Part shown: positions 34,476 through 39,567 of the stretch, piece by piece
How positions within the stretch are numbered: position 1 is the stretch's first letter
How the letters are laid out: every line of letters begins with the position of its first letter
From: Anaeromyxobacter dehalogenans 2CP-1
GTDB lineage: Bacteria; Myxococcota; Myxococcia; Myxococcales; Anaeromyxobacteraceae
Length of the DNA: 64,000 nt
Direction of reading: 5' to 3'
Assembly (NCBI RefSeq): GCF_000022145.1
Contig: NC_011891.1
Location: 3,454,501 to 3,518,500 of the forward strand
Position numbers and translations under genes: made by a program
The notes under the pieces: model-generated
Databases searched by the model: none
What the model saw: only the letters and a program-made list of their open reading frames with translations
What the model was told of the DNA's origin: nothing

Positions 34476-34793
34476 ATGCGCTTCATCGGCTGGAACCTGT
34501 TCTTCGCCGCCTGGCTGCTCGTCACCGCCTTCGCGCTCTCCCACAGCGGCCCGTCGATCTTCCTGACCTGCGTCGCGGCGCTCGCCATCGCGGTGCTCGC
34601 GTTCGCCTCGCGCGGCCTGCCCAGGCTGCGGCTCGCGATGGCGGTGGTGGCCCTGGTGCTCGGCGGCGCCGCGCTGCTCATGCCGGACCTGTCCGGGCTG
34701 GCCCGCCTCAACAACGGCCTGGTGGCGGCGCTGGTGTTCGCGCTGGCGGTGATCCCGGGCCGCGCCGACCTGGTCGGCTCGCGCGCGGGCTGA
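34476..34793 (+). CDS. Small four-helix membrane protein
   Basis: 105 residues with a strong GGGAGGAGG ribosome site. Four hydrophobic segments (about 5-22, 25-44, 52-70, 82-98) with short polar turns and a charged RLR link suggest an inner-membrane protein; the N-terminal MRFIGWNLFFAAWLL resembles short SPW-type membrane proteins. Function unknown. A TTGACG element at 34379 may be part of its promoter. Confidence 0.6.
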   Translation: MRFIGWNLFFAAWLLVTAFALSHSGPSIFLTCVAALAIAVLAFASRGLPRLRLAMAVVALVLGGAALLMPDLSGLARLNNGLVAALVFALAVIPGRADLVGSRAG

Positions 34794-34918
34794 GCGCGAG
34801 GGACGGCGGCGCCGGCTGCTCGCGGCCCGCCGGTCGCGCGGGCCGCGCCGCGCCCGCGGCAGGTCCGGGTCGACACCCCGCCGGCTTGATGCGAGAGTCG
34901 TGGGCGCCGGCCCCGACC

Positions 34919-37525
34919 ATGCCCTCCTCGCCCGCCAGCACCGGCCTCGCCGCCCTCGACGCCGTGGTCCAGGGGCTCCGCCCCGGCGACAACGTGGTCT
35001 GGCAGGTGGAGTCGGTGGAGGACTACGCGCCGCTGGTCGCGCCGTTCGTGGCCCGCGCGCTGGCCGAGGGGCGCAAGCTCGTCTACTTCCGGTTCGCCCG
35101 CCACGCCCAGCTCGTGCCGGACGCGTCCGGCGCGCAGGTCCACCGGCTCAGCCCCGCGCTCGGATTCGAGAGCTTCACCGCCAGCATCCATCGCGTCATC
35201 GAGGCCCAGGGCAAGGGCGCCTACTACGTCTTCGACTGCCTCTCCGGGCTGGCCGCCGACTGGTACAGCGACCTCATGCTCGGCAACTTCTTCATGGTCA
35301 CCTGCCCGTACCTCTACGAGCTGGAGACCGTGACGTACTTCGCGCTGCTGCGCGACGGGCACTCGCACGACGCGGTGGACGCGATCCGCAGCACCACGCA
35401 GCTCCTGGTGGACGTGTTCCGGCACCAGGCGGCGCTGCACGTCCATCCGCTCAAGGTGCAGGGGCGCCACTCGCCCACCATGTACCTGCCGCACCGCTGG
35501 GAGGGCGACGCGCTCCGGCCGCTCACCGAGAGCGCCGTGGTCGCCGAGGCGCTCGCCGACGCGACCGAGCGCCGGCACGACCCGTTCTCGCGCATCGACG
35601 TGTGGGAGCGGCGGTTCCTGCAGGCGCGCGCGGTGGCGGACGACGTGGTGGCCGGCCGACGGCCGTGGGAGGACGGGCAGGAGGCGTTCCGGACGCTGCT
35701 GCGGATGATGTTGACGCGCGACGAGCGCTTCACCGAACTGGCGGCGCGCTACCTCGATCTCGACGACCTGTTCGCGATCCGGCGGCGCATGGTCGGGACC
35801 GGGCTGGTGGGCGGGAAGGCCGCCGGCATGCTGGTGGCGCGAGCGGTGCTGGAGCGCACCGAGCCCGGCTGGAAGCGGCGCCTGGAGCCGCACGACTCCT
35901 GGTTCGTCGGCTCCGACGTCTTCTACACGTACCTGGTGCGGAACGGCCTGTGGCGGGCGCGGCGCGGCCAGCGCTCGCGCGGCGCGTTCCTGGAGGGCGC
36001 CGCCGAGGCGCAGGCGCGGATCCTGGCGGGCACGTTCCCGGACTTCGTGCTCCGGCAGTTCGTGCTCATGCTGGAGTCGTACGGGCAGTCGCCCATCATC
36101 GTCCGCTCCAGCAGCCTGTTGGAGGACGGCTTCGGCAACGCGTTCACCGGCAAGTACGAGAGCGTGTTCTGCCCGAACCAGGGCTCGCCGGAGGAGCGGC
36201 TCGAGGCGCTGCTCGCCGCGGTGAAGACGGTGTACGCGAGCGCCATGAGCGAGGAGGCGCTGCACTACCGCGAGCGCCGGGGCCTGCTCGATCGCGACGA
36301 GCAGATGGCGATCCTGGTGCAGCGCGTCTCCGGCGGCGTCCGCGGCAAGTACTTCTACCCGCAGTGCGCGGGCGTGGCGCTCTCCTACAACCCGTACGTG
36401 TGGAGCCACCTCATCGACCCGCAGGCCGGCGTGCTGCGGCTGGTGTTCGGCATGGGGACGCGGGCGGTGGACCGCTCCGACGACGACTACACGCGCGTCG
36501 TCGCGCTCAACGCGCCGAAGCTCCGCCCCGAGACGAGCCTCGACGAGGTCACCGAGTACGCGCAGCGCCGCGTGGACGTCATCGATCTGGAGGCGAACCG
36601 CTTCGCCGCCGAGCGCATCGACGCGGTGGTGCGGGGCAGCCCGGACCTGCCGGTGGACCTGTTCGCCGTGCAGCGGCGCGAGGGCGGCGGCTGGGTGCTC
36701 ACGTTCGAGAAGCTGCTGTGGGCGACCTCGTTCGTGGCCGAGATGCGGGCCATGCTCGCGATCCTCCGCGACGCCTACCGCTACCCGGTGGACGTCGAGT
36801 TCACCGCGAACCAGCTCGCCGGCGGGGAGCTGCGCGTCAACCTGGTGCAGTGCCGGCCGCTGCAGGTGAAGGAGGGCGGGATGCTGCCGCCCCCGCCGCA
36901 GGTGCGGACCGACGCGGTGCTGCTCGCGAGCCGCGGGCCGGTGGTGGGCCAGGGCACCCACGCGCCCGTCGACCGGCTGGTGCTCGTGGACCCGGACGTC
37001 TACTCGACGCTGTCCACCCAGGATCGGTACGAGGTGGCCCGCGTGGTCGGCCGCGCCGCGCGGCTCCCGACGCCGGCCGAGGGCGGGCGGATCCTGCTGC
37101 TCGGCCCCGGGCGCTGGGGCACCACCACGCCGGCGCTGGGCGTGCCGGTCAGCTTCGCCGAGATCCACCGGGTCGCGGCGCTGGGCGAGATCATCGGGAT
37201 GGGCAACGTGATCCCCGACGTGTCGCTCGGCTCGCACTTCTTCAACGAGCTGGTCGAGGCGGACATGCTCTACCTCGCGCTCTATCCGGGCTACCCCGGC
37301 CACGCGCTCGAGGCGGAGCGGTTGCGCATGCAACCGAACCGCCTGCCCGAGCTGCTCCCGGACGACGCGCGGCTGGCCGGCGTGGTGCGGGTGCTCGACT
37401 TCCCGGCGGCGCCCGGCGGACCGCGGCTCTGGCTGTACGCGAGCTGCGTCACGCAGGAGGTGCTGGGCTACCTCGCCGACGAGCCCGCCGTCGCCGGCCC
37501 TCCCCCGCCGCCCCGCCCGGCGTAG
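34919..37525 (+). CDS. Fusion of a degenerate RecA/KaiC-like domain and a PPDK-type ATP-grasp domain
   Basis: 868 residues from ATG 34919 (an ATG at 34889 would add ten). Residues 1-215 read like a KaiC/RecA domain (TGLAALDAVVQGLRPGDNVVW, then YYVFDCLSGLAADW), but the Walker A loop is replaced by QVESVEDYAP, so no ATP is expected there. Residues about 285-660 match the pyruvate phosphate dikinase/PEP synthase nucleotide-binding domain: GGKAAG (298-303) and VRSSSLLEDGFGNAFTGKYESVF with Arg396. The phosphohistidine swivel domain and PEP-binding barrel are absent; instead a unique C-terminal region has LLGPGRWGTTTPALGVPVSF and GNVIPDVSLGSHFFNEL. So it is not PEP synthase; the role is unknown. 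It ends before a strong hairpin. Confidence 0.8.
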   Translation: MPSSPASTGLAALDAVVQGLRPGDNVVWQVESVEDYAPLVAPFVARALAEGRKLVYFRFARHAQLVPDASGAQVHRLSPALGFESFTASIHRVIEAQGKGAYYVFDCLSGLAADWYSDLMLGNFFMVTCPYLYELETVTYFALLRDGHSHDAVDAIRSTTQLLVDVFRHQAALHVHPLKVQGRHSPTMYLPHRWEGDALRPLTESAVVAEALADATERRHDPFSRIDVWERRFLQARAVADDVVAGRRPWEDGQEAFRTLLRMMLTRDERFTELAARYLDLDDLFAIRRRMVGTGLVGGKAAGMLVARAVLERTEPGWKRRLEPHDSWFVGSDVFYTYLVRNGLWRARRGQRSRGAFLEGAAEAQARILAGTFPDFVLRQFVLMLESYGQSPIIVRSSSLLEDGFGNAFTGKYESVFCPNQGSPEERLEALLAAVKTVYASAMSEEALHYRERRGLLDRDEQMAILVQRVSGGVRGKYFYPQCAGVALSYNPYVWSHLIDPQAGVLRLVFGMGTRAVDRSDDDYTRVVALNAPKLRPETSLDEVTEYAQRRVDVIDLEANRFAAERIDAVVRGSPDLPVDLFAVQRREGGGWVLTFEKLLWATSFVAEMRAMLAILRDAYRYPVDVEFTANQLAGGELRVNLVQCRPLQVKEGGMLPPPPQVRTDAVLLASRGPVVGQGTHAPVDRLVLVDPDVYSTLSTQDRYEVARVVGRAARLPTPAEGGRILLLGPGRWGTTTPALGVPVSFAEIHRVAALGEIIGMGNVIPDVSLGSHFFNELVEADMLYLALYPGYPGHALEAERLRMQPNRLPELLPDDARLAGVVRVLDFPAAPGGPRLWLYASCVTQEVLGYLADEPAVAGPPPPPRPA

Positions 37526-37608: not shown

Positions 37609-39567
37609 CTACCGCATCGACACCTTCCTCGGCGCCTTCGCGCCCACCACGTCGAGCGCGCCCTGCGCCAGCACCTGCGCCTCCTTCACCTTCTCGATCG
37701 TGTACCTCGGCGCGTGCACGCCCGACGACCCGTCGGCCGCGACCGTGTCGAGGATGCTCTGCGCCTGGTTCGCCATGAGCGTGGCCTGGCCGAGCTTCGC
37801 CGGCGGCAGCTTCGCCCTGGCGATGGCCGGGCGCGCCGCCTCGAGCAGCCGCTTCGCCTCGGCGACGCCCTGCTTCACAGGGCCCTGCCATCCCATCAGC
37901 CGGTCGTAGATCTGCTGCTGGTTGGTGAAGTGCAGGTCCTTCGAGAGCTCCGACCGCGTCGGGCTGTGGCAGCCGCCGGCGCTCTCCAGGTCGTCGTCGC
38001 CCCAGCTCGTCCGGCCGCAGGCCCACATCAGGTCCACGAACGGCTTCCCGTCCTTCTTCGCGAGCCGCCACGCACCTTCCTTCCAGTTGCGATCCTTCCC
38101 CGGCGGCGGATCGAGCGTCTTCGCCTTCGGGTCCACCAGGATCTTGAAGATGTGCGAGGTGCGCTGCGTGTCGAAGCCGGCGACGTCCGTGTACTGGATC
38201 GTCCCGAAGTTCTCGCAGCTCATCATGCTCGGCATGTGGCAGCTCGAGCACTTGTTCGCGCCGTGGACGTCGTTGTGGACGAACATGGAGGCCTGCGCCT
38301 GGTGGCAGTCCTGGCACTCCTTCTTCAGGCCGGGCACCGTGACCCGCTCGCGCCAGTCGTTCGCGGTCACCTCGTGCGGATCGTGGCACGTGGAGCAGGT
38401 CATGCCCGACTCCCAGTGCGCGGTGTAGTAGGCCTGCGAGCCCTCGGTGCCGCACGACGGGCAGCGGCTCTTGAAGTAGGCGTTGAAGGCCTGGCGCGGA
38501 TCCTTGGCCGCCTCGTCCGCGTTCCAGACGAACCGCTGGTGGCAGCGCTCGCAGTTGGAGGACGCCGAGGCGCGCGCGCCCATGAGGTGCGCGCCGGCGC
38601 CGTGGCACTCCTCGCAGCTGATGCCCTTGTTGATCGTGTGCTTGCGCAGCTCCTCCGGCTTGCCCAGCGCCTGGATCAGCTCCTCCTGGCTCTTGAAGTC
38701 GAACTTGAACGAGTGGCACACCTCGCAGTACGCGGTGGCCGGCTGGAACATCATGCTCTTGCGGTTCTTCGAGCCGTAGGAGGTGAGGCCCCAGGTCTTG
38801 CTCCCGTTGTCGCCGAACTCCTCGAGCTTGGTCGGGAAGCCCGGGACCCAGGTCGCGATCTGCTTCGCCACCTCGGGCGTGAGCGACTCGGCCCAGGTCC
38901 GGGAGTGCTGGTTGCCGCCGGCCACCAGCGTGCCGGTGCCGTCGCGGAGCAGCCCGCCCTCGACGTGGTAGGTGCCGCGGACCAGCCACGCGTCCAGGAA
39001 GCCGTACTTGGTGCGCGGCGTGCCGATGATCGCGTAGACCGCGTCGGGCGTGATGCCCGGGGGCAGGATGGGCGCCTCGCCGAACTGCGGCCTGGTCAGG
39101 TCCTTCGTCTCGACCATCTCGTCCGGGAACCGGACCACCAGGTTGTGGCGGGAGCGCTTCCACTTCTCGTACTGCGCCGGGTGGCACTCGCCGCACTTCT
39201 TCGACCCGACGAACTTGTTGGGCAGGTCGAGGATCGACTCCTGCCCGAGGCGGTAGGTGATCGAGGCGTGGTCGCCGGTCTTCTCGGCGTAGGCCTTGCC
39301 GCCGCCGAACTCGACGAACTCCTCCTCGCGGTCGCTGATGGTGTACTTGCCGACCAGCCGCCCGTCCTTCTCGTACTTGAAGATGGGGTGGTTCTTCTTC
39401 AGGTGGTCGTAGAACGCCTTCTCCTGCTCGACGTAGCCCTGGAGCGTGCGCGGCGAGCCGGGGGCGGCCGGCGCCGCCTCCTTCTCCGCCGCGGACGCCG
39501 GCGCCGCCGCCGCCAACGCGAGCGCCGCCGCCGCGACGCCCGCCCTCGACATCCACGTGGATCGCAT
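37609..39567 (-). CDS. Octaheme cytochrome c resembling MccA/SirA sulfite reductase
   Basis: 652 residues with a Sec signal peptide. It contains seven CXXCH heme sites (CGECH, CEVCH, CEECH, CERCH, CSTCH, CQDCH, CSSCH) and one atypical site in which Cys517 and Cys533-His534 are separated by 15 residues (CGRTSW...GGCH). Eight hemes with a single CX15CH site is the pattern of the MccA/SirA dissimilatory sulfite reductases, where, as I recall, the atypical site holds the catalytic heme beside a copper ion bound by two Cys. Non-heme Cys here are 369 and 372 (CPSC) and 451 (MMSCENF), possible copper ligands. No NrfCD-type partner or dedicated heme lyase is in the window. Electrons would come from the quinone pool by periplasmic carriers. 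Start ATG 39567 follows GAGGGAG. Confidence 0.75.
   Translation of the reverse strand: MRSTWMSRAGVAAAALALAAAAPASAAEKEAAPAAPGSPRTLQGYVEQEKAFYDHLKKNHPIFKYEKDGRLVGKYTISDREEEFVEFGGGKAYAEKTGDHASITYRLGQESILDLPNKFVGSKKCGECHPAQYEKWKRSRHNLVVRFPDEMVETKDLTRPQFGEAPILPPGITPDAVYAIIGTPRTKYGFLDAWLVRGTYHVEGGLLRDGTGTLVAGGNQHSRTWAESLTPEVAKQIATWVPGFPTKLEEFGDNGSKTWGLTSYGSKNRKSMMFQPATAYCEVCHSFKFDFKSQEELIQALGKPEELRKHTINKGISCEECHGAGAHLMGARASASSNCERCHQRFVWNADEAAKDPRQAFNAYFKSRCPSCGTEGSQAYYTAHWESGMTCSTCHDPHEVTANDWRERVTVPGLKKECQDCHQAQASMFVHNDVHGANKCSSCHMPSMMSCENFGTIQYTDVAGFDTQRTSHIFKILVDPKAKTLDPPPGKDRNWKEGAWRLAKKDGKPFVDLMWACGRTSWGDDDLESAGGCHSPTRSELSKDLHFTNQQQIYDRLMGWQGPVKQGVAEAKRLLEAARPAIARAKLPPAKLGQATLMANQAQSILDTVAADGSSGVHAPRYTIEKVKEAQVLAQGALDVVGAKAPRKVSMR

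Follow-up and report, generated by a model that had tools for sequence, protein, structure and literature searches.

The gene and its relatives

The window analysed here is a stretch of 64,000 nucleotides (G000:C1:3454501-3518500) from the 5.03 Mb genome of Anaeromyxobacter dehalogenans 2CP-1. Its forward strand carries an open frame of 868 codons (34919..37525, +), the start of which agrees with that of the homologues; an in-frame ATG at 34889, 30 bases upstream, would add 10 aa. Upstream of the gene lies a coding sequence for a small hydrophobic protein of 105 aa with no family match (34476-34793, +), and a gene for a large multi-haem c-type cytochrome (37609-39567, −) is convergent to it. 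The cytochrome resembles the decahaem families GSU2203 and DmsE only weakly (39 bits vs a cut-off of 325).

The nearest named homologues of the 868-aa protein are from Anaeromyxobacter, with strain PSR-1 at 97% identity. Full-length homologues at 39-98% identity were found in at least eight phyla, their hosts being Anaeromyxobacteraceae, unclassified deltaproteobacterial MAGs, Acidobacteria, Planctomycetota, Lentisphaerae/Kiritimatiellae, Omnitrophota, Spirochaetes, Lachnospiraceae and others. Because full-length homologues occur in many phyla, the architecture is old and stable rather than a local accident, and the fusion of a KaiC-like domain to a PPDK_N domain is, judged from these sequence relatives, not peculiar to the A. 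dehalogenans genome. Literature searches found no characterised homologue of the 868-aa protein. It had no match in a phage-defence library, and an NCBIfam scan placed no equivalog near its cut-off. A phmmer search of the single protein against the PDB returned only antibody matches, which we took as chance. The AlphaFold2 model of the whole protein, built with 46 homologues in the alignment, had a mean pLDDT of 87.6 and a pTM of 0.85.

The KaiC-like and ATP-grasp domains

A preliminary description of this locus, made from the sequence alone, had recognised an N-terminal RecA/KaiC-like domain lacking the ATP loop, and our analysis bears this out. Residues 2-217 (34922..35569, +) aligned with KaiC in VIA with a Z-score of about 20 over 202 residues at 2.9-3.0 Å. 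With few exceptions the 46 sequences have GDN(I/V)V at the Walker A position, the G, D and N being invariant, and Asp106, the aspartate at the Walker B position, is invariant among the 46 homologues as well. A regex search of their N-terminal domains found no true Walker A motif. The one match, AAREAGKT in a single homologue (L054), was outside the loop position and was rejected as chance.

The central domain is of the PPDK type, as had also been described. It spans residues 260-653 in the structural model (35696..36877, +), and Pfam PPDK_N (PF01326) matched residues 296-653 with an E-value of 5e-43; this was the sole family found when the 868 aa were scanned at E up to 1. When its profile was aligned to PEP synthases, the GGK, VRSS, DVE and QxRP motifs coincided with the canonical ones. 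In this alignment Lys300 of GGK (35816..35818, +) is the equivalent of Lys22 of RPH and PPDK, Arg396 of VRSSS (36104..36106, +) is the equivalent of RPH Arg117, and Glu627, Gln644 and Arg646 of E...QxR (36797..36856, +) contribute to the nucleotide/Mg site. Every one of these ATP-site residues is invariant in 46 of 46 homologues, and Lys22 and Arg117 are essential in RPH (PMC4844700), so the ATP-grasp domain is expected to be active. The three motifs singled out previously (GGKAAG, VRSSSLLED and GPGRWGTTTP) are indeed present and conserved among the homologues. The PEP/pyruvate TIM barrel (PEP-utilizers_C) was absent by Pfam at E up to 1, and the remainder of the 868 aa is otherwise assigned, in agreement with the earlier view that the protein is neither a PEP synthase nor a known dikinase.

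The C-terminal domain and its invariant histidine

The C-terminal domain (residues 656-855; 36884..37483, +) had been described as unique, and no sequence comparison over residues 656-868 placed it in a family. Pfam searches of 50 members at E up to 10 did not detect the phosphohistidine domain PF00391, two C-terminal alignments compared with canonical His domains by hhalign gave no match, and hmmsearch of PDB sequences with the C-terminal domain gave no phosphohistidine-domain match. At the level of fold the uniqueness is doubtful. Modelled alone, the domain reached a pLDDT of 92.4. Foldseek returned nothing significant for this model, and in VIA its nine best rows were all phosphohistidine domains: the C-terminal extension of Bacillus pyruvate kinase, the swivel domain of RPH (761-866), Enzyme I, four PPDK chains (380-513) and two more PPDKs. 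The Z-scores of these rows were modest (5.2-5.9, over 103-126 residues at 3.0-4.6 Å), with up to about 120 of 130 PPDK residues covered. The rows that followed (putative cyclases, LD-carboxypeptidase C-domains, TRiC apical domains and PA domains) belong to the same swivelling beta/beta/alpha class in SCOP. Alignments of the whole model to PEP synthase 2ols and PPDK 1dik likewise reached residues 852-853, extending into the His domains of these enzymes.

The domain contains the GPGRWGTTTP motif (residues 729-738; 37103..37132, +), which is conserved in all sub-families, and a GSHFF motif whose histidine, His773 (37235..37237, +), is invariant in 46 of 46 homologues and across four sub-families. 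We propose His773 as the phosphoryl-carrying residue. The predicted succession of secondary-structure elements (two strands, helix, strand, helix, strand, a helix led by the motif histidine, strand) matches the PPDK His domain, and His773 is the first residue of its predicted helix; His773 is compared here with PPDK His455 through this succession of elements in the model. When the ATP-grasp and C-terminal domains were forced into a profile alignment with canonical PEP synthases, the ATP site fitted well and the histidine was not placed.

On the strength of the model we consider it highly probable that the C-terminal domain is a genuine, divergent phosphohistidine domain; we stop short of greater confidence because Z-scores of 5-6 are modest and the histidine is placed by the order of elements. 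The statement in the preliminary description that the phosphohistidine domain is missing is therefore probably wrong, the swivel-type fold and the invariant His773 weighing more than the lack of a PF00391 match. The corollary that the protein cannot carry out the usual reaction probably fails too, at least for the first half-reaction, in which ATP would charge the histidine of the divergent swivel domain. The A. dehalogenans genome encodes only two proteins with PF00391, a PPDK and a protein at 187 kb that, from its sequence context, is probably PTS Enzyme I, and thus there is no obvious separate His subunit in this genome. More generally, if divergence can hide a phosphohistidine swivel domain from sequence comparison, Pfam-based calls of a missing domain in relatives of PPDK may mislead.

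Partner domains of the conserved core

The core formed by PPDK_N and the GPGRWG...G(S/T)HFF region was found with several different partner domains. Besides the KaiC-like domain of the 868-aa protein, receiver-like partners occur (L017-L019, L041 and L129-L131), other proteins (L132-L135) combine the core with an N-terminal domain and a C-terminal nucleotidyltransferase, and further forms are a 784-aa protein and one of about 580 aa that consists of the core alone. The Response_reg match in the N-terminus of the receiver-type proteins was just under the Pfam cut-off, and literature searches found no characterisation of these proteins, which are annotated as 'PEP/pyruvate-binding domain-containing protein'. 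At one locus (L132; G033:C184:8500-18500) three core sub-families lie side by side: the core-only protein of about 580 aa, a 1083-aa protein with the C-terminal nucleotidyltransferase and, on the other strand, the 784-aa form. At another (L041:3318-10589) gdhA, a receiver-type gene and a KaiC-type gene are consecutive, so one organism can use both the receiver-type and the KaiC-type sub-family, even at a single locus. Since the ATP-charging core is constant and its signalling-type partners are interchangeable, we infer that the family serves regulation rather than a fixed metabolic reaction.

Genomic linkage to NADP-dependent glutamate dehydrogenase

Genome neighbourhoods, whose comparison was one of the checks proposed in the preliminary description, were examined for the window and 62 relatives by comparing the genes at all 63 loci with one another. 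Only one neighbour recurred across phyla. This protein of about 448 aa was identified as NADP-specific glutamate dehydrogenase (NF006929, 742 bits vs a cut-off of 536); no further pathway genes travelling with the gene were conserved across phyla at these loci. Flanks of at least 4.9 kb on either side were available for 32 loci, and gdhA adjoins the gene in 16 of these, which belong to several phyla (p about 5e-24 at a generous chance of 1% per locus, the loci not being phylogenetically independent). Their relative arrangement takes four forms: the two genes can be divergent or convergent, or they can share a strand, with gdhA either upstream (gaps from 9 bp) or downstream. The downstream arrangement occurs in deltaproteobacterial loci, with gdhA behind a Fic gene. 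Ten such loci carry a gene for a Fic-domain protein with a winged-helix C-terminus between the gene and gdhA (for example L033:10627-11460, −, and L086:10614-11624, −, with eight similar loci). A part for the Fic gene in the system was considered; the gene is confined to one clade.

Co-occurrence was consistent with this linkage. The core domain was present in 36 of 195 genomes of the phylum and NADP-GDH in 38; both were present in 28 genomes, the core alone in 8, GDH alone in 10 and neither in 149 (odds ratio 52, Fisher p 1.6e-18). Outside the family of A. dehalogenans the corresponding counts were 16, 7, 4 and 144 (p 8e-14). In 19 of the 28 genomes with both genes, the two share a contig and lie no more than about 4 kb apart. 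Among these close pairs are ones with the KaiC type (G004, G006, G011, G013, G018 and G060) and ones with receiver-type or other forms (G020, G025, G031-G033, G035, G037, G039, G046, G163-G165 and G192). In the A. dehalogenans genome itself gdhA is at 3574395, 82 kb from the gene, and in four Anaeromyxobacter genomes the close linkage has been lost with both genes still on one contig. Several relatives (G009, G012, G014 and G017) have this GDH without a protein of the 868-aa type, showing that the dehydrogenase does not always need it.

The linkage extends to the receiver-type relatives, which adjoin gdhA in Myxococcota and in Bacteroidales. In Parabacteroides distasonis and Phocaeicola massiliensis gdhA is divergent to the receiver-type gene. 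In Bacteroidales this gene is flanked by two NADP-GDH paralogues (L129:9184-10518 and L129:17142-18476; L131:6415-7749 and L131:15052-16383), which in P. distasonis are 67% identical to one another. The position of the receiver-type gene between both paralogues suggests specific control of one or both dehydrogenases. From these observations we conclude that the genomic link of the family to NADP-GDH is strong.

Proposed function and alternative explanations

Our preferred reading, to which we assign a probability of about 0.5, is that the 868-aa protein is an ATP-charged phosphohistidine regulator of GdhA, descended from the ATP-charging machinery of PPDK and PEP synthase. According to this model, the ATP-grasp domain would bind Mg-ATP, and His773 of the swivel domain would dock on it and take up a phosphoryl group in an AMP-forming reaction like those of PPDK, PEP synthase and RPH; both the charging with release of AMP and the swivelling movement are inferred by analogy with the dikinase mechanism (RPH, PMC4844700). 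Instead of acting on pyruvate, the charged swivel domain would pass its phosphate to a partner protein, or interact with that partner in a phosphorylation-dependent manner. Genomic linkage points to NADP-dependent GdhA as the most likely partner, the activity of which would be switched or maintained in this way, possibly by direct phosphotransfer. The KaiC-like domain, lacking P-loop ATP hydrolysis, may act as a sensor or as a docking or oligomerisation platform, and receiver domains would take its place in the sister family. A protein that phosphorylates another target or acts as a regulator, as suggested in the preliminary description, is thus the best-supported class of function; the connection to GDH had been missed there.

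A metabolic dikinase seems doubtful to us by comparison. Such an enzyme would charge His773 and phosphorylate a small molecule from glutamate/nitrogen metabolism, with the KaiC-like domain binding the substrate, much as in RPH and HpeHI. Among solved structures, small-molecule dikinases (RPH and HpeI) come closest to the protein in fold, and adjacency to gdhA suits a pathway neighbour as well as it suits a regulator. However, gdhA is the sole neighbour shared across phyla and no other genes of a pathway lie alongside it, the core also exists as a protein of about 580 aa on its own, and the interchangeable partners (KaiC-like, receiver-like and C-terminal nucleotidyltransferase domains) are of the signalling type.

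We regard it as unlikely that the protein regulates GDH without catalysis, as a pseudo-enzyme or a nucleotide sensor, binding GdhA and altering its activity or assembly according to bound ATP or AMP. The KaiC-like domain is already a pseudo-ATPase and the C-terminal domain cannot be recognised as a phosphohistidine domain by sequence, both of which suit such a sensor, but the checked ATP-grasp residues and the candidate histidine are invariant across divergent homologues, which would be unusual in a pseudo-enzyme.

It is very improbable that the gdhA neighbourhood is inherited gene order of no functional meaning and that the role of the protein lies elsewhere. Some homologues, including the one in the window, are away from gdhA, but the two genes occur together in four orientations, in several phyla and in two sub-families, and they co-occur outside the family of A. 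dehalogenans (p 8e-14); mere synteny would not outlast such rearrangement. Least probable of all is an ATP-grasp domain served, as in HpeHI, by a phosphohistidine subunit encoded elsewhere, with another role for the C-terminal domain: stand-alone HpeI is a precedent (PMC12167813) and PF00391 is not found in the 868-aa protein, but the only two PF00391 proteins of the genome are PPDK and the probable Enzyme I, no such gene is among the conserved neighbours, and the C-terminal domain itself has a predicted swivel fold with an invariant histidine.

The phosphohistidine regulator may also be connected with an earlier observation. According to the title of a 1996 study by Baggio and Morrison (cited in PMC4539542), one or more trans-acting genes next to Bacteroides gdhA affect GDH activity. 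The receiver-type gene is 2.96 kb long, and in the Bacteroidales that we examined it is divergent from the nearer gdhA, not downstream of it, with the second gdh paralogue on its other side. The abstract is said to describe a segment of about 3 kb that is needed for activity in E. coli. As far as the title of that report goes, the receiver-type family could be the unnamed trans-acting gene. Tentatively, and with less confidence than we place in the regulator itself, we suggest that a widespread family of ATP-charged phosphohistidine kinases with interchangeable pseudo-KaiC or receiver sensors might reversibly phosphorylate or activate NADP-GDH, and that the Bacteroides factor might be a member. 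If true, this would tie signalling directly to ammonium assimilation in Myxococcota, Planctomycetota, Bacteroidota and others. NADP-GDH being the entry of ammonium into glutamate, nitrogen would also be regulated in a novel way that lies outside the GlnB/GlnE paradigm, and this in phyla whose nitrogen control is poorly understood, gut Bacteroidales included.

Comparison with known systems

The N-terminal domain shares the fold of residues 2-217 and the STGLxxLD entry motif with the KaiC and RadA-type RecA-like ATPases, from which the 868-aa protein differs in having the invariant GDN in place of Walker A and in being fused to a dikinase core. The ATP-grasp domain is common to it and to PPDK and PEP synthase, as is the central His domain at the level of fold, whereas the 868-aa protein lacks the TIM barrel, has a His domain too divergent for PF00391 and carries the additional KaiC-like domain.

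Two small-molecule dikinases are close in fold. RPH-Lm (5hv1/5hv3) shares the ATP-grasp fold (Z about 26), its Lys22 and Arg117 have equivalents in the 868-aa protein, and in both proteins the swivel domain is C-terminal, after the other domains. In contrast to RPH-Lm, the 868-aa protein has an added N-terminal KaiC-like domain, a swivel domain that is unrecognisable by sequence and no rifampin-binding domain, the C-terminal domain following directly after residue 653 (RIF_Ptrans_rph scored 26 bits vs a cut-off of 999). HpeI (9goj) has an ATP-grasp domain of the same type and is the stand-alone ATP-grasp subunit of the two-component dikinase HpeHI (PMC12167813), whereas the domains of the 868-aa protein are fused and include the KaiC-like partner.

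The receiver-type protein WP_041525632.1 of Parabacteroides distasonis has the same core of PPDK_N and C-terminal GPGRWG...G(S/T)HFF, about 25-33% identical, and its gene also adjoins gdhA; a receiver-like N-terminus of about 430 aa replaces the KaiC-like domain. A precedent for the proposed mode of action is VadK (Rv1127c) of Mycobacterium tuberculosis, a PPDK-derived protein that autophosphorylates on histidine and binds and tunes enzymes of the methylcitrate cycle (PMC13400623). By description, VadK has an ATP-grasp and phosphohistidine core without the PEP/pyruvate barrel (PMC13400623), an architecture that the 868-aa protein probably shares; VadK differs, again by description, in being a truncated PPDK relative without a KaiC-like domain, and its target is the methylcitrate cycle rather than GDH.
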